Origin: Pelistega sp.
GTDB lineage: Bacteria; Pseudomonadota; Gammaproteobacteria; Burkholderiales; Burkholderiaceae_B
Direction: 5' to 3'
NCBI GenBank assembly: GCA_030538255.1
Contig: JAUNUI010000002.1
Location: 47,762-85,182 of the forward strand
DNA: 37,421 nt
The notes below the pieces were generated by a model. It ran no database searches. It was not told where the DNA came from and saw only the letters and a program-made list of their open reading frames with translations. Position numbers and translations under genes: made by a program. Positions 14,620 through 28,475 of the stretch are shown one piece after another (the stretch's first letter is position 1; every line of letters begins with the position of its first letter).

Positions 14620-17037
14620 CTAAGCTCGCAGAAATAAACCAGCCATGGCAAAATGTGATGCTTCCACATCAAATTTTGCCGCAAAGTTATCTAGCTTTGT
14701 AAGCGCTTGCGACATCGTCATGGCCGAATTTTTAGTTTCAATACCTTTTATATCAATCTTCCAACCACCAATATCCGCTTTCTGCGCATAGACGGTATTT
14801 GTTGATATTCTCCATTTAAGTTCAAACCCAACAAAATCATCGAACCAACCATACTTGCTTGAACCTTGAGCACCCTGATTATTATGCTTGGTATCATTAA
14901 TATCGACGGTGGGCGCATTTAAGGTAATTTTAGTAGGGGCTGTTATCGTAATATCTGTCCCTCCTGTTAGGGCAATAGAGTTACCTTGCTGATGCATTGT
15001 CCAATCACCATCCGATGTCTCTGTTGTCGTCCCTGTCACCAAAGACTCCAATGGACCATCAACCGTTTCGTTGCGGCTGGTATTATGGGTAATAGTCACG
15101 GCACCCGTTACTGTCTGCGACCATGTCGCACCGAAGGTATCGCTCACAGCAGCATCCACAGTCGTTGTACGCGTTCCCGTGGTATTGTAGGTGCCACTGC
15201 CATTTAACTGGTGCAACTGATCGCCATTCACGGTATAAGTTTCATTCCCCGTAATCGTCTCGGTATTATCGCCTTGCAAGGTATAGGTGTTGCCGCCATC
15301 GACATTACGTTTCACGCCTCCCTGTACATCATCATTTAAACCAGCGGCCGTGATACGACTCATAACGCCGGCATGAAAGTACTCGCTCTCATGGCCGTGC
15401 ACTTCCGTGGTGCGGGTACGCTTAACCTCGCGATCTTCATCACCCTTCACTAAGGTGGTTAAATTATTGCCAACTGTAATATCCAGATTACGCAAAATAT
15501 TCATCACCATATCCAGTTGTGCACGCACATCAACCAGTTCTTTACCAAGCTCATCCACCATTAATAAATGGTTTTCATGGTTAGGGTCAGCATGAATACT
15601 CTTACTTCTAAAGCCACTGGTATGTGCATTGGCCGGAAGATCGACCAATGGCATGTTCATATCATTATTAACGCGACCAATAATAATCGGTCTGTCTGGA
15701 TTGCCACCAATAAAATCAACCACTACCTCTTGATTGATCCGAGGGATTTGTAAAGCACCAAAGCCTGTGCCAGCCCAAGGACTCGACACGCGAATCCAAC
15801 ACGAGCTGTTCTCATCACTCTGACCATAGCGGTCCCAATGGAATTGCACTTTCACACGGGCGAACTTATCGGTCCAGATTTCTTCGCCTGCGGGACCCAC
15901 CACCTTAGCGGTCTGCGGGCCATAAGTTTTCGGTTTAGGGGTTTCACGCTTCTTGCGGAACTGAGTCTCAATCGGCAGAGCTTTAAACTTAATCGCAAAG
16001 CGATCTTCACGATCCGTACCTGTTGTATAACCCGCCACCTGCATATCGTATTCGGCCGAGATTAAGAGGTATTTCTTATTTTCTTTATGGCGTGGATGGT
16101 TGCGTAAGGTGAAGGTACGACCTGGCTTAACAGCGCGGATATTGGCTTCACCACTAATTATATCGCGGTCAACGCGTAGTTCTTCATGGCGTACCAAGGA
16201 GTAATATTCACCATCCACAGGCTCCACATAGCCGCCCATCCATTCGTAGATTTCGTTGCTACCCACAGTGGCTTCGGTCCCTAGACTATCAAAGGCATTA
16301 ATCGAGGCACGCGATTTTCTGAAGTCATAATCATCGGTAGAGTACGTGCCTGAGGCAATCTCAGTGGCTACTTTCCATTCTGAGACGAACTCCTCAACCC
16401 CACGCACATGTTCATTCTTATCTAAGAAGGTAAAGACTTCGTAACCTGCATAGTCTTTATGCATCCCATTATGGTCAGAAATCACCAAAGTGTGCTTACC
16501 CATGTTCATCTTGAACCAGTAGTACATCCCTTCGTGCTCCATCAGACGACTCACGAAATCAAAGTCGGTCTCATCATACTGCACACAATATTCCCAATTA
16601 CGGTAACGCGAGTGGGCAAAAGCCAACTCAATCTCCATACCATACTCACCTAATACCTGTTGGATAATGTCAGGCACGGTCATATTCTGGAAGATTTTAT
16701 AATCTTTATTCAGCGTGGCGTACCATAATAGAGGGCTAATAGTTGCTTTATAGATATAGTATTGTGAGTTCACCATCTCGCGGCCAACGAGCTCAAACTT
16801 CGTAATCACCCCATGCATAAAGCGCGGAATACCGCCTTGGGTCTCGACTTGCAAAGTCATGCTCTTACCCAATGCATCACGGCAGTCTAGCATATAGGTC
16901 TTAGCGACCAACTCGACTTCGAAGGAATATAATTGTGAAAGTCCTTCCTTGCCCTTCATACTGAGAAAGTGCAAGACGCCAGGTAGATGCGTATGCGCAA
17001 TCACTGGACGCGTAAAGATGTCGTTAAGAATATCCAT
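14620..17037 (-). CDS. vgrG: Type VI secretion spike protein VgrG
   Basis: A VgrG (TssI) trimeric spike protein, 805 residues from the ATG at 17035-17037, which has GGGAG 5-9 bases upstream. An ATG 102 bases further upstream is open but has no Shine-Dalgarno and adds an atypical 34-residue leader. Domains: gp27-like region (about 1-370; YSFEVEL, YDETDFDFVSRLMEHEGMYY), gp5-like OB fold (about 395-480; HWDRYGQ, SPWAGTGFGALQIPRINQEV, NPDRPIIIGRV), beta-helix needle with T/N-rich repeats (about 485-720; ETITGNETYTVNG) and a C-terminal extension of about 80 residues (SSKYGWFDDFVGFELKW to the end) of no known fold. The extension may carry or dock cargo. No other T6SS structural genes are in the window, so this is an orphan vgrG island. 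Confidence 0.95.
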   Translation of the reverse strand: MDILNDIFTRPVIAHTHLPGVLHFLSMKGKEGLSQLYSFEVELVAKTYMLDCRDALGKSMTLQVETQGGIPRFMHGVITKFELVGREMVNSQYYIYKATISPLLWYATLNKDYKIFQNMTVPDIIQQVLGEYGMEIELAFAHSRYRNWEYCVQYDETDFDFVSRLMEHEGMYYWFKMNMGKHTLVISDHNGMHKDYAGYEVFTFLDKNEHVRGVEEFVSEWKVATEIASGTYSTDDYDFRKSRASINAFDSLGTEATVGSNEIYEWMGGYVEPVDGEYYSLVRHEELRVDRDIISGEANIRAVKPGRTFTLRNHPRHKENKKYLLISAEYDMQVAGYTTGTDREDRFAIKFKALPIETQFRKKRETPKPKTYGPQTAKVVGPAGEEIWTDKFARVKVQFHWDRYGQSDENSSCWIRVSSPWAGTGFGALQIPRINQEVVVDFIGGNPDRPIIIGRVNNDMNMPLVDLPANAHTSGFRSKSIHADPNHENHLLMVDELGKELVDVRAQLDMVMNILRNLDITVGNNLTTLVKGDEDREVKRTRTTEVHGHESEYFHAGVMSRITAAGLNDDVQGGVKRNVDGGNTYTLQGDNTETITGNETYTVNGDQLHQLNGSGTYNTTGTRTTTVDAAVSDTFGATWSQTVTGAVTITHNTSRNETVDGPLESLVTGTTTETSDGDWTMHQQGNSIALTGGTDITITAPTKITLNAPTVDINDTKHNNQGAQGSSKYGWFDDFVGFELKWRISTNTVYAQKADIGGWKIDIKGIETKNSAMTMSQALTKLDNFAAKFDVEASHFAMAGLFLRA

Positions 17038-22758: not shown

Positions 22759-24978
22759 ATGCAACTGGCAAGCAATCAAGAACTACAACCCAACGAGCAG
22801 CAATTGCTCGATGCGATATTGGCAGAGCATATCGACAAAGAAGGCAATCTCTTGCCTATCTTGCATGCTATTCAGGACGCGCTCGGTTTCATCCCTGAGA
22901 CCCTAATTACGCCCTTGGCCGAAGCGCTTAATCTTACCAGCGCGGAGGTTTTTGGAGTCATCAGTTTCTATACACACTTCAGATTGCAGCCCTGTAACGA
23001 GATTCATATTGAGTATTGCCGAGCGGAGGCTTGTCAGGCACGCGGAGCCACCGAACTTGAGCAAGCGTTGACACAATGGCTACGGTCGCACCACCCCGAT
23101 GCAAGCCATGAAGCGGTGTATTGCTTAGGTCTATGTGCCCAAGGTCCCGCGGCAATGCTAAACCAGCAAGCACTGGCGCGCCTCACGCTAGACAAGCTCC
23201 AAGCTCAGATTCAGGCTCAAGGACAGATTAAGACTCAGACCCATACTCAGGTTCAGACTCAAGGACGGGATCAGACTCTGATTCAGACTCCAGCGCAAAT
23301 TCAGGCTCAGGCTGATGAACATGTCCCGGTTCAGGCCCAAACTCCAGCCCAAGCTCCAAGCTCAGATTGCAGGAGTCAACACATGCAAAGCATAAAGATG
23401 TATATCCCTATGGATTCTGCCGCCCTAGCAGTAGGTGCTGATGATTTAGTCGCCCCCATTCAAGCGATGGCCAAAGCAAGCAATACGCCTATTCAAATTA
23501 TTCGCACAGGTAGCCGAGGTCTGTTATGGCTTGAACCATTCATTGAAGTAGAATCTGCTCAGGGTCGTATCGGCTATGGTCCGGTTGCTGTCGAGGACCT
23601 ACCCAGCTTATTCGAATCAGGCTGGTTAGAAAATAAGCCGCAAGATAAACCGCAAGGTGAACCTCAAGATAAGCAACAAAGCGAACATCACCCCCTATGC
23701 CAAGGCCTAGTCGATGAAATTCCTTATCTCAAAAACCAAGAGCGCTTAACCTTCCAACGCGTGGGTATTATTGATCCCTTGAATAGCCAAGACTATGCTG
23801 AACATGGCGGCTGGCAAGGCCTGAAGAATGCCCTGAACATGCAAGGCGACGACATCATCGATACCGTCACGCAGTCAGGTCTACGCGGACGAGGCGGAGC
23901 TGCCTTCCCTACAGGTATTAAGTGGAAGACTGTACAACAAGCCGCAGGCGAGCAAAAGTACATCGTGGCCAATGCCGATGAGGGCGACTCAGGGACATTC
24001 TCCGACCGCATCCTGATGGAAGGCGATCCCTTTGCCCTGATTGAAGGCATGATTATCGCTGGCCTAGCGGTGAATGCTAGCCAAGGCTATATCTATGTGC
24101 GCTCTGAATATCCGCAGGCAATTTCGATGTTGGAAAAAGCCATCGCGATAGCGATAGAGCAGCGCTACTTAGGACAGAATATTTTAGGTTCGAACTACGA
24201 CTTTAATCTCGAAGTGAGAAAAGGCGCTGGCGCCTATATCTGTGGTGAAGAAACGTCCTTACTAGAAAGCCTCGAAGGTAAGCGTGGGGTGATTCGTTAT
24301 AAGCCACCTCTCCCCGCGATTAAAGGCTTTATGGGCATGCCGACCGTGGTGAATAACGTTGTGACCCTCGCTTCAATCCCACTTATTCTTGCAAAAGGCG
24401 CCGACTTTTATAAAGACTTTGGCCAAGGTAAGTCCTATGGCACCTTAGCCTTCCAGCTAACAGGTAATATCAAATATGGTGGTCTCGTAGAAAAAGCATT
24501 CGGTATAAGCTTAAAGGAACTACTCTACGACTATGGCGGTGGTAGCGACGATGGACAAGACTTAAAAGCGGCACAAGTCGGCGGTCCCTTAGGCGCATAT
24601 CTCTCTGAGAAGGAATGGGATACCCCCTTGGATTATGAGGCATATGCACAAATAGGTGCCATGATCGGTCATGGCGGCATTGTAGCTTTCGGCGAAAACA
24701 CCGATATGGCCAAGATGGCGGAGTATGCCATGCAGTTCTGCGCTATTGAGTCCTGTGGTAAGTGCACCCCCTGTCGCATTGGTTCCACCCGAGGCGTAGA
24801 AACCATCAGCAAAATCCGCCAAGGGATTCAGCCCCAAGAGAATCTGGCCTTATTGGAAGACTTGTGCCACACCATGATTGATGGTTCCTTATGTGCCTTA
24901 GGCGGTATGACCCCCTTCCCTGTCCTGTCGGCGCTGAAGAAATTCCCAGAGGAATTTGTTCAAGATGAAGCGTCGTGA
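22759..24978 (+). CDS. fdsB: Fused FdsG-FdsB: NAD-linked formate dehydrogenase gamma and beta subunits
   Basis: A 739-residue fusion of two subunits that are normally separate. Residues 1-147 are FdsG/NuoE-like with the thioredoxin-fold 2Fe-2S ligands C87, C92, C122 and C126. Residues 148-206 are a Gln-rich low-complexity linker. From M209 a complete FdsB follows: thioredoxin-like domain (VGADDLVAPI, GSRGLLWLEPFIEV), FMN site GLRGRGGAAFPTG (374-386), NAD-site region ANADEGDSGTF, and 4Fe-4S ligands C666, C669, C672 and C712. Together with FdsA it passes electrons from formate to NAD+. M209 has its own AGGAG at 23371-23375, so free FdsB may also be made. A second small polar insert (DKPQGEPQDKQQSEH, 296-310) lies in the beta part. 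Confidence 0.94.
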   Translation: MQLASNQELQPNEQQLLDAILAEHIDKEGNLLPILHAIQDALGFIPETLITPLAEALNLTSAEVFGVISFYTHFRLQPCNEIHIEYCRAEACQARGATELEQALTQWLRSHHPDASHEAVYCLGLCAQGPAAMLNQQALARLTLDKLQAQIQAQGQIKTQTHTQVQTQGRDQTLIQTPAQIQAQADEHVPVQAQTPAQAPSSDCRSQHMQSIKMYIPMDSAALAVGADDLVAPIQAMAKASNTPIQIIRTGSRGLLWLEPFIEVESAQGRIGYGPVAVEDLPSLFESGWLENKPQDKPQGEPQDKQQSEHHPLCQGLVDEIPYLKNQERLTFQRVGIIDPLNSQDYAEHGGWQGLKNALNMQGDDIIDTVTQSGLRGRGGAAFPTGIKWKTVQQAAGEQKYIVANADEGDSGTFSDRILMEGDPFALIEGMIIAGLAVNASQGYIYVRSEYPQAISMLEKAIAIAIEQRYLGQNILGSNYDFNLEVRKGAGAYICGEETSLLESLEGKRGVIRYKPPLPAIKGFMGMPTVVNNVVTLASIPLILAKGADFYKDFGQGKSYGTLAFQLTGNIKYGGLVEKAFGISLKELLYDYGGGSDDGQDLKAAQVGGPLGAYLSEKEWDTPLDYEAYAQIGAMIGHGGIVAFGENTDMAKMAEYAMQFCAIESCGKCTPCRIGSTRGVETISKIRQGIQPQENLALLEDLCHTMIDGSLCALGGMTPFPVLSALKKFPEEFVQDEAS
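23200..23376 (+). repeat. 6-bp-unit coding repeat: Gln-rich linker between FdsG and FdsB
   Basis: Runs of CAGRCT, CAGATT and CAGGCT hexamers, partly interrupted, encode residues 148-206 (Q-A, Q-T and Q-I pairs). The repeat occupies the place of the expected fdsG-fdsB junction. Composition and repetitiveness match the minisatellites in other spacers of this window, suggesting that repeat growth removed the fdsG stop and joined the frames. Confidence 0.85.
23371..23385 (+). promoter_or_regulatory. Internal Shine-Dalgarno and ATG for FdsB
   Basis: AGGAG at 23371-23375 is followed after 7 bases by an in-frame ATG at 23383-23385, codon 209 of the fusion, exactly where the FdsB homology begins. 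It appears to be the original fdsB start. Internal initiation would give a 531-residue FdsB, a normal length for the subunit. Confidence 0.65.
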
Positions 24979-25218
24979 TAGGAAGTCTGATAAGTCTGAT
25001 GGTGAGACATGAGTAAGGACGCAATGGCAATTACACTACAGAGATACGCCGCAAGGAAATTGCAGTGCTAAATTACAGGACTAATTAATGACGATTCAAA
25101 TAGCGGCAAAATTCATGCCTATAGCAATGTTAGCAATGAATACAGAGCATCAATAGACAAAGTATCAATAGATAAAGTATAAATCTAAAATAAAAACAAT
25201 AATCATAGGAGCAGACAA
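24979..25218. other. Expanded gap inside the formate dehydrogenase operon
   Basis: 240 bp separate the fused fdsGB gene from fdsA, much more than is usual in fds operons. A 22-codon frame at 25088-25156 has AGGA upstream but no recognisable product. AAAGTATCAATAGA-like words repeat near 25158-25183. No terminator or strong promoter is evident, so cotranscription remains likely. Confidence 0.5.
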
Positions 25219-28080
25219 ATGTTAGAAACCGTTCTCAAGCGTGAGCAGGATTTTGGTACACCTACCATTAAAACTTACCAAGCAGAAGTCAGTCTTCATA
25301 TCGATGGTCACCTTGTGCGTGTCCCTGAAGGTACTTCAGTGATGCGCGCAGCCGCTACGCTTGGCCTCAATATCCCTAAGCTGTGTGCTACTGACTCTTT
25401 AGAACCCTTCGGCTCCTGTCGTCTATGCCTAGTGCAGATTGAAGGACGTCGTGGCTATCCCGCCTCTTGCACTACCTTAGTCGAAGAAGGCATGGTGGTC
25501 ACCACAGAAAACAAGCGCTTAGCCGATCTACGTCGTAATGTCATGGAGTTGTATATCTCTGAGCATCCGCTAGACTGCTTGACTTGCCCAGCCAATGGCG
25601 ATTGTGAGCTGCAAGATACCGCTGGACAAGTGGGTTTAAGAACGGTGCGCTATGATGCTTATGATAAACAAGCCGCCAATAAAACCCCTGATAGTTCAAA
25701 CCCATACTTTAGTTTCAACCCCGATTTATGCATTGTCTGTAATCGCTGCGTGCGGGCGTGTGAAGAAACTCAGGGCACTTTTGCCTTAACCGTAGACGGT
25801 CGAGGCTTTGACTCTTTAATTAGTACAGGGTTAAACACTAACTTTAAAGAAAGTGATTGTGTCTCTTGCGGTGCTTGCGTCTCAAGCTGCCCGACAGGTG
25901 CCTTAATTGAAGACAGTGTTATTGCTATGGGACAGCCCAACCATGCCGTTATCACGACCTGTGCTTATTGTGGTGTAGGTTGTGGACTTAAAGCCGAGAT
26001 GAAAGGTGAAACCATCGTACGTATGACGCCCTGGAAAGACGGTAAGGCCAATGAAGGCCACGCTTGTGTGAAGGGACGCTTTGCCTGGGGCTATGCCACC
26101 CACGCAGACCGCATCACCAGCCCAATGATTCGCTCTTCGATTAATGAGCCTTGGCGTAAAGTCTCCTGGGACGAAGCGATTAAGTATGCCGCTAGCGAAC
26201 TCAAGCGCATACAAGCCAAGTATGGCCAAGATTCTGTAGGCGCCATCTCCTCATCTCGCTGCTCGAACGAAGAAGTCTATCTGGTGCAGAAAACCGTACG
26301 TGCTGCCTTAGGCAATAATAATATTGATACCTGCGCGCGCGTCTGCCACTCCCCCACGGGTTACGGCTTAAAACAAACCTTAGGTGAATCTGCTGGCACG
26401 CAAACTTTTGAATCCGTAGCCGATTGCGATGTGATTCTGGTGATGGGCGCTAATCCCACCGATGCACATCCTGTATTCGGTTCACGCTTAAAGCGACGCT
26501 TACGCCAAGGTGCCAAGTTAATTGTGATTGACCCAAGAGCGATCTCCTTAGTTTCCACTGCACATATTAAGGCCGATTATCATTTGCCTCTTATGCCAGG
26601 TACCAATGTGGCCATGCTGAATGCGCTTGCCCACACCATTATGCGTGAAGGTTTAGAGGATAAGCAGTTTATACGCGAGCGCTGTGACGCGGTGGCTTTT
26701 AACCAATGGCTTGAATTTATCCAACAGGAAGAGAACTCGGCTGATGCAGTAGCCGCCATTACCGGCGTGCCCGCAGAAACCATCCGCGCCGCCGCTCGAC
26801 TCTACGCCACAGGCGGCAAGGCAGCCATCTATTATGGCCTCGGCGTGACCGAACATAGCCAAGGTTCAACCGCTGTAATGGCGATTGCCAACTTGGCCAT
26901 GCTGACCGGCAATATTGGCACCAGTGGCGTCGGCGTTAACCCTCTACGCGGCCAGAATAATGTACAGGGCTCCTGTGATATGGGCTCATTCCCCCATGAG
27001 TTCCCAGGCTATCGCCATGTGTCTGATGATGCCACACGCCAGCAATTTGAACAGGCATGGGGTGTCACCCTCAAAGCCACGCCTGGCCTGCGCATTCCGA
27101 ACATGTTCAATGCCGCCATTAGTGGCACCTTCAAGGGTCTCTATTGCCAGGGCGAAGATATTCTCCAGTCGGATCCAAATACCCAACATGTGGAAGCCGC
27201 CTTAAAGAACCTAGAATGCCTGATTGTGCAAGACCTATTCTTAAATGAGACCGCTAAATTTGCCCATGTCTTCTTGCCTGGCGCCTCATTCTTGGAAAAA
27301 GACGGCACCTTCACGAATGCCGAGCGACGTATCTCACGCATCCGTAAAGTCATGCAACCACTTGCGGGCATGGCCGACTGGGAAGTTACACAAGCCTTAT
27401 GTAATGCCCTAGGCTACCCGATGAATTACCAGAGCCCAAATGAGATTATGGATGAAGTGGCGCGCTTAACACCGACCTTCGCCTCGGTGAGCTATGAGCG
27501 CATTGACGCCTTAGGCGGTAGCGTGCAATGGCCATGTAATGATGACAATCCTGAAGGCACACCGATTATGCATCAGCATAGCTTCCCACATGGCTTAGGC
27601 AAGTTTGTGGTTAGCCAATACGTCCCGACCGATGAGCGCGTCACCCAGCGCTTCCCATTGATACTGACGACAGGACGCATCCTGACACAATACAATGTCG
27701 GCGCCCAAACCCGCCGCACCAGTAATACAGCATGGCATGCCGAAGACGTATTGGAAATCCACCCGCACGACGCCTCAGACCGTGGTATTGAAGATGGCGA
27801 TGTAGTGCAGATTAGTAGTCGAGTGGGGCAAGTGGCGATGAAAGCCCAGATTTCCACCCGCATGCAACCAGGCGTGGTCTACACCACCTTCCACCACCCG
27901 ATTTCAGGCTCGAATGTGATCACCACCGAAAACTCCGACTGGGCCACCAATTGCCCTGAGTATAAAGTGACCGCCGTACAGATTAGTAAGGTGGAGGGAA
28001 CAACAACAGCATGGCAAGAGCGGTGGTTGGAGACGGAACAGAAACAGCAGGCCTTATTGGCGATGGCGGAAGGTGGGTGA
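25219..28080 (+). CDS. fdsA: NAD-linked formate dehydrogenase catalytic subunit FdsA
   Basis: A 953-residue molybdenum or tungsten formate dehydrogenase alpha subunit, oxidising formate to CO2 in the cytoplasm. Order: NuoG-like 2Fe-2S domain (C56, C67, C70, C84), His-Cys 4Fe-4S site (H116, C120, C123, C129), two ferredoxin-type 4Fe-4S clusters (C171/C174/C177/C181 and C214/C217/C220/C224), then the bis-MGD domain with its 4Fe-4S ligands C248, C251, C255, C283 followed by K285. The metal-binding residue is Cys, not selenocysteine (CARVCH; C376, H377). AGGAG lies at 25207-25211. It ends in QQALLAMAEGG. The usual small subunit FdsD and the sulfurtransferase FdsC/FdhD are not found downstream in the window and must be encoded elsewhere if present. 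Confidence 0.96.
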   Translation: MLETVLKREQDFGTPTIKTYQAEVSLHIDGHLVRVPEGTSVMRAAATLGLNIPKLCATDSLEPFGSCRLCLVQIEGRRGYPASCTTLVEEGMVVTTENKRLADLRRNVMELYISEHPLDCLTCPANGDCELQDTAGQVGLRTVRYDAYDKQAANKTPDSSNPYFSFNPDLCIVCNRCVRACEETQGTFALTVDGRGFDSLISTGLNTNFKESDCVSCGACVSSCPTGALIEDSVIAMGQPNHAVITTCAYCGVGCGLKAEMKGETIVRMTPWKDGKANEGHACVKGRFAWGYATHADRITSPMIRSSINEPWRKVSWDEAIKYAASELKRIQAKYGQDSVGAISSSRCSNEEVYLVQKTVRAALGNNNIDTCARVCHSPTGYGLKQTLGESAGTQTFESVADCDVILVMGANPTDAHPVFGSRLKRRLRQGAKLIVIDPRAISLVSTAHIKADYHLPLMPGTNVAMLNALAHTIMREGLEDKQFIRERCDAVAFNQWLEFIQQEENSADAVAAITGVPAETIRAAARLYATGGKAAIYYGLGVTEHSQGSTAVMAIANLAMLTGNIGTSGVGVNPLRGQNNVQGSCDMGSFPHEFPGYRHVSDDATRQQFEQAWGVTLKATPGLRIPNMFNAAISGTFKGLYCQGEDILQSDPNTQHVEAALKNLECLIVQDLFLNETAKFAHVFLPGASFLEKDGTFTNAERRISRIRKVMQPLAGMADWEVTQALCNALGYPMNYQSPNEIMDEVARLTPTFASVSYERIDALGGSVQWPCNDDNPEGTPIMHQHSFPHGLGKFVVSQYVPTDERVTQRFPLILTTGRILTQYNVGAQTRRTSNTAWHAEDVLEIHPHDASDRGIEDGDVVQISSRVGQVAMKAQISTRMQPGVVYTTFHHPISGSNVITTENSDWATNCPEYKVTAVQISKVEGTTTAWQERWLETEQKQQALLAMAEGG

Positions 28081-28180
28081 GTGAAAACGGCAAGACCACT
28101 TACGATTGCCGAAGTAGTGCGCTTGACACGAGATGGAGGCGACTCAAAATAGAGACGAAGACAGGAACAACGTTAAAGCG

Positions 28181-28236
28181 CCCGAAACCCGAAGCCCTAA
28201 ACCCTAAACCATAAACCCTAAACTCTAAACCCTATG
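28181..28236. repeat. Telomere-like CCCTAAA heptamer array, 8 units
   Basis: Eight contiguous 7-bp units: two CCCGAA(A/G), then CCCTAAA, CCCTAAA, CCATAAA, CCCTAAA, CTCTAAA and CCCTATG. The sequence equals the plant-type telomere repeat. In a bacterial chromosome it is most simply another short minisatellite; the unit-by-unit decay argues against recent contamination. Confidence 0.9.
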
Positions 28237-28401
28237 ATTATTATGGAAATTTGCTCCTTTTTTGACAAATCAGGAGCAAGCGATAAGCATAGCTGTTTTT
28301 GTCACATACTTCACAAATAAACAAATCACTTGTGACTTATATCAAAACTTTTCAAACTAAAACAACTGAAGTCTTTATAAAAGTCAAGTAACTAGATATT
28401 A

Positions 28402-28467
28402 CCCTTTGTAAATATAAATAATTTGTTATATCATTATATATAACAAATTATTTATATTTACAAAGGG
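28402..28467. repeat. Perfect 30-bp inverted repeat overlapping the TMEM43-gene RBS
   Basis: The arms 28402-28431 and 28438-28467 are exact reverse complements over 30 bases, with a 6-base loop CATTAT. The left arm starts CCCTTTGTAAATATAAATAA and the right arm ends TTACAAAGGG. The stem is AT-rich except for the CCC/GGG base. The right arm ends 8 bases before the ATG at 28476, so AAAGGG of the Shine-Dalgarno (AGGGAG, 28464-28469) is paired in the folded mRNA. No T-run follows, so a terminator is unlikely. It could be an RNA thermometer or switch, a regulator dyad, or a mobile-element trace. Confidence 0.97.
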
Positions 28468-28475
28468 AGTCTTAT

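Follow-up and report, generated by a model that had tools for sequence, protein, structure and literature searches.

A single fdsG-fdsB reading frame in Pelistega sp. very probably arose from an ordinary overlapping gene pair that was fused when a tandem repeat expanded within the final codons of fdsG and shifted the frame. The locus lies in a 37,421-nt stretch of contig JAUNUI010000002.1 (hereafter, the window), from a single draft genome. In the ORF list of the window, we observed a single frame of 739 codons without a stop that joins FdsG to FdsB (Table 1). A Pfam search placed PF01257 (FdsG type) at aa 18-152 of this frame (E 2.6e-30), and PF01512 (aa 370-541) and PF10589 (aa 652-734), both of FdsB, further downstream. 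Cysteines 87, 92, 122, and 126 of the FdsG part are retained as in five relatives, and the FdsB cysteines that are invariant among relatives are all present in the alignment; we take these conserved residues to be cluster ligands. Among PDB entries, the four best matches of the FdsG part were gamma subunits of formate dehydrogenases, and the FdsB part aligned to 6vw7_B over aa 214-733 of the fusion (E 9.9e-218). As in FdsGBA formate dehydrogenases, the locus encodes the [2Fe-2S] thioredoxin-like domain of FdsG, the N-terminal ferredoxin-like domain, FMN domain, and 4Fe-4S region of FdsB, and an adjoining fdsA with molybdopterin domains; at the level of the genes, FdsG and FdsB are here not separate polypeptides but one reading frame. 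FdsB also carries a second private insert of ~16 residues, seen in none of the five aligned relatives, near the end of its N-terminal domain and upstream of the FMN domain. In R. capsulatus, this domain comprises about the first 100 aa of FdsB, according to the excerpted text of PMC7171172.

Table 1. Coordinates in the window of the fused gene, its junction, and adjoining features
Feature	Position	Strand	Basis
Fused fdsG-fdsB reading frame, 739 aa	22759..24978	+	ORF list, Pfam
FdsG part, aa 1-151, [2Fe-2S] thioredoxin-like domain	22759..23211	+	PF01257, alignment
5' copy of 19-bp direct repeat, CAAGCTC CAAGCTC AGATT, in FdsG frame	23193..23211	+	Sequence
157-bp insert, hexamer-periodic, 25 x 6 + 7, encoding Gln-rich linker	23212..23368	+	Self-comparison, alignment
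3' copy of 19-bp direct repeat, one base out of phase relative to 5' copy	23350..23368	+	Sequence
AGGAG ribosome-binding sequence of old fdsB, 7 nt upstream of ATG	23371..23375	+	Same in three closest relatives
Old fdsB ATG, M209 of fusion	23383..23385	+	Relatives' junctions, internal-ATG survey
FdsB part, 531 aa	23383..24978	+	Pfam, matches to relatives, alignment
Old fdsG stop TAA, kept out of frame	23393..23395	+	In-silico excision of insert
Second private insert in FdsB, ~16 codons, Gln/Pro/Lys-rich, repeat-like	23629..23676	+	Tandem Repeats Finder rows, alignment
fdsB-fdsA spacer, 240 bp, with short repeats	24979..25218	+	49 bp in relative G044
fdsA, catalytic subunit, separate gene	25219..28080	+	PF00384/PF01568/PF04879/PF13510 (Pfam)

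To place the junction among its relatives, we searched 268 genomes of the family. Matches were found in 262 of them, with strong FdsB matches in at least 149 genomes besides this one. The best matches outside the window came from G044, G045, and G049 (FdsB 75-77% and FdsG 61% identical), in all of which fdsG and fdsB are separate genes that lie in different frames and overlap by 13 nt, the FdsG stop lying after the FdsB ATG. FdsG of these relatives is 159 aa long and ends in LEKIKAKIQGVATCKG-stop (G044 and G045) or LEKIKAKIQGVAACKG-stop (G049). Removal of 157 bp from the fused gene on paper gave an FdsG of 159 aa ending in LDKLQAQIAGVNTCKA-stop, with the same 13-nt overlap. The first-pass annotation had called for a comparison of junctions in related genomes. 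Across 89 other junctions of the family, drawn from the at least 149 genomes (29 loci by search, 40 mainly with long open frames, a choice that leans to fusions, and 20 for spread), the two genes were separate in 88, consistent with its proposal of two ancestral genes, and a conserved linker of the same length was not found among them. All six loci from other groups likewise had separate genes. Matches in the remaining six species of the genus reached only E 1.8e-91 to 1.3e-87, scores that suggest NuoF, hence these congeners seem to lack fds; for this reason, the ancestral state was inferred from another genus.

The one fused junction among the 89 belongs to another genus of the family (G230, L096:3655-5805), where an in-frame FdsG-FdsB fusion of 717 aa has a short, non-repetitive linker. 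This fusion is apparently an independent one, and, if an indel has intervened, the GTG just upstream of the FdsB-homologous part could serve FdsB as its own start.

In the alignment, the residues of the Pelistega protein without a counterpart in relatives are ~152-208, that is, 57 residues, or 59 if the boundary is set slightly earlier. The in-frame joint through a Gln-rich, hexamer-encoded linker, as described in the first-pass annotation, is borne out by the ORF, the Pfam matches, and the self-identity of the DNA. The insert matched itself at 0.51-0.53 identity at lags of 6, 12, 18, 24, and 30, and at 0.11-0.27 at the remaining lags up to 30. At each of lags 6, 12, 18, and 24, the observed identity was not reached in 5000 dinucleotide-based random sequences or in 5000 codon shuffles. 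Across the whole window, the lag-6 value was attained by 21 of 37,264 segments of 157 bp, all of which begin in the 500-base bin containing the insert. Tandem Repeats Finder returned no more than small fragments of the array (scores 33-41), and a strict CAGRYT-type pattern had no match, missing even the array itself. When we searched the genome for a source of the insert, the sole real match among nine was the locus itself (E 5e-97), the next having E 0.92.

The insert is bounded by two perfect 19-bp repeats that lie 157 bp apart; the longest exact repeat in randomized versions of 23150-23420 was 14 bp (2000 dinucleotide-based random and 2000 codon-shuffled sequences). The array is stop-free in the frame used, and each of the other two frames hits a stop inside it. 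A length of 157 bp leaves a remainder of one when divided by three, so that the fdsG frame continues into that of FdsB and runs past its own old stop. Taken this way, the hexamers preserve the frame, and one heptamer, present as exact copies in both 19-bp repeats, shifts it. The earlier view of an expanded intergenic minisatellite that had lost the stop therefore needs amending in two respects. Two ancestral genes do appear to have been joined by a repeat, but the array sits inside the 3' codons of fdsG, and there was presumably no intergenic spacer since fdsG and fdsB overlap by 13 nt in the three closest relatives. Nor was the stop lost: the TAA of fdsG persists and is passed over through the +1 shift that the insert brings.

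We propose that the ancestor had an fdsG-fdsB pair with a 13-nt overlap, and that a tandem repeat expanded locally within the last fdsG codons, the likely seed being the double heptamer CAAGCTC CAAGCTC followed by AGATT. The resulting insert, 25 hexamers and one heptamer, would have let FdsG run through the Gln-rich array into the FdsB frame. The sequence relations are observed, and we infer slippage as the mechanism of the expansion. Judging from its length, we expect the main product to be a single diaphorase subunit of ~81 kDa, in which the linker is probably flexible and tethers FdsG to FdsB; the fused subunit would then work in the usual FdsA-FdsB-FdsG formate dehydrogenase. A tethered diaphorase is plausible because FdsG and FdsB of R. 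capsulatus share a contact area of 1754 square angstroms (excerpt of PMC7171172) and because one chain of Methylobacterium extorquens FDH1 (MeFDH1), the beta subunit, matches both. Such a diaphorase would be expected to keep one FdsG per FdsB.

It is possible that the old fdsB start is still used to some degree. A locus with two outputs, the fused protein and free FdsB, which might alter the stoichiometry of the complex as the first-pass annotation suggested, is nevertheless a tentative and rather doubtful alternative to a single fused product. The first-pass annotation had placed an AGGAG and an ATG exactly at the start of FdsB and taken them for the old start; both are indeed there, and the AGGAG and its 7-nt spacing match those of G044, G045, and G049. 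In a survey of 27 ORFs of the window (6 of the 33 listed, which overlap longer ones, were omitted), AGGAG or GGAGG at 4-9 nt spacing preceded only 1 of 262 in-frame ATGs beyond codon 10, namely that at 23383, as well as 3 of the 27 ORF starts. The predicted openness around the start codon also equals or exceeds that in two relatives (0.60 in the fused gene and 0.59 with the insert excised, versus 0.55 and 0.25). However, most of the ribosome-binding site is paired in the predicted fold, with a mean unpaired value of 0.13 versus 0.44 and 0.43 in the two relatives, and excision of the insert changes this little (0.17). Moreover, the signal may be left over from a recent event, and free FdsB would be without a matching FdsG.

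We consider it unlikely that, rather than a recent accident, this is an old, selected fusion with a functional linker like that of MeFDH1 beta. The same modules are fused elsewhere (7e5z_B), and G230 provides a second, short-linker case in the same family; yet the linker here is repetitive and absent from all other loci examined, and the intact old stop, old start, and 19-bp repeats suggest a young event. MeFDH1 beta itself looks like an independent fusion because the FdsB N-terminal domain is missing there, as far as the excerpt of PMC10869683 describes it. A sequencing or assembly error, with a true insert of different length and genes that are still separate, is very unlikely: this is a repeat region in a single draft genome of 47 contigs, and a look-alike fusion in the Sinorhizobium sp. 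C101 record seems to be a frameshift within FdsG, but an array of this small size (157 bp) and divergence (~52% identity at lag 6) should assemble well, the frame-setting heptamer is the same in both 19-bp repeats, and FdsG is intact up to its C-terminal stretch.

The Sinorhizobium record came from a tblastn search of plasmids, in which 268 records matched and 51 of these had at least 80% of the query covered at a single place; among the best 40 of the 268, 38 match in two pieces, one in three, and one (C101) in one piece. We rejected this further candidate fusion because a frame change removes its last FdsG cysteine motif and because a single base in a G run separates it from a sister record. 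The G run of the two plasmid records (L123/L124) lies within fdsB, and the frame changes inside fdsG in both of them; sequencing indels are the probable cause.

A fusion by repeat expansion fits the abundance of diverged tandem arrays in this genome and at least one congener. Using Tandem Repeats Finder at score 50, we counted 48 arrays in 231 kb (~21 per 100 kb), the 37-kb window holding 8 of them after merging and other stretches of the genome (194 kb) the remaining 40; randomized sequence gave 0 or 1 array per set. In small samples of 20-100 kb each, relatives had 6.2 (G222), 5.0 (G219), 10.0 (G223), 5.0 (G044), 8.8 (G049), and 3.1 (G045) arrays per 100 kb, and the congener G220 lay above this genome with 32.5 (40 kb sampled). 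Arrays covered 1.80% of bases in the window and 1.61% in the other stretches, compared with 1.69% in G049, 4.17% in G220, and 0.14-0.56% in the other five; relative to G049, the excess lies in number, not coverage. Of the 40 arrays outside the window, 7 are inside ORFs of at least 200 codons, 7 partly so, and 26 outside them. Within the window, an intergenic minisatellite at 28181-28234 has the unit CCCTAAA, which we take to resemble the plant telomere repeat, probably by chance. No RNA family reached its gathering score in the window. FdhD is needed for formate dehydrogenase maturation, and a match to its family is present on a contig other than that of the fds operon (C15 of this genome, G000, 14931-15635).

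Fusions of neighboring subunit genes are usually inferred from end states, whereas at this locus traces of the intermediate steps can still be read: the repeat that probably served as seed, the unit that sets the frame, a stop that is now bypassed, and the former start. Judged from these traces, the event appears to be a gene fusion in which the genes were joined through an insertion of suitable length modulo three, and not through a deletion or the loss of a stop, and it links the fusion of a metabolic gene to a genome rich in diverged tandem arrays. Subunit fusion as such is already known; for one caused by a frame-shifting repeat insertion at an overlapping pair, no title or abstract opening among the matches listed gives a description.

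The closest parallel for the repeat is phase variation by slipped-strand mispairing, in which, in the excerpts of PMC3711429 and PMC12871928, repeat length sets the reading frame, as it does here. Phase variation switches one gene off, whereas here the frame change joins two genes; length variation was not observed in the one genome. That the array acts as a slow switch between fused and split enzyme is highly doubtful. If it did, the heptamer, or recombination between the 19-bp repeats, would decide whether FdsG runs on or ends at its old stop, and in the split state FdsB would start from its former ribosome-binding site. One locus could then express either state, and cells within a single population could differ in which one they carry.

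For the enzyme, among the best solved sequence relatives is the NAD-dependent formate dehydrogenase FdsABG(D) of Rhodobacter capsulatus (6TGA) and Cupriavidus necator (6VW7), which has the same subunits. The R. capsulatus operon, fdsGBACD in the excerpt of PMC7171172, shares the order fdsG-fdsB-fdsA with the Pelistega locus. FdsG and FdsB are separate chains in those enzymes, in contrast to the one frame here, and fdsD is part of the R. capsulatus operon, whereas a search for its family (PF11390) had no match in the whole Pelistega genome, and none was seen after fdsA (28081-28475). PF11390 was found in three of five relatives searched (G045, G168, and G170), with 14 control genomes silent; its absence from the matches of G044 and G049, which have separate fdsG and fdsB, indicates that fdsD is not universal among close relatives. 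MeFDH1 beta (7E5Z and 7VW6) is a solved chain that matches both parts: 7e5z_B, of 572 aa, matches the FdsG part at 28-171 and the FMN part of FdsB at 193-566. There, an FdsG-like part is fused to the FMN part with ~21 residues between the matches; the Pelistega protein instead keeps the FdsB N-terminal domain and joins FdsG to it through a linker of ~57 residues.
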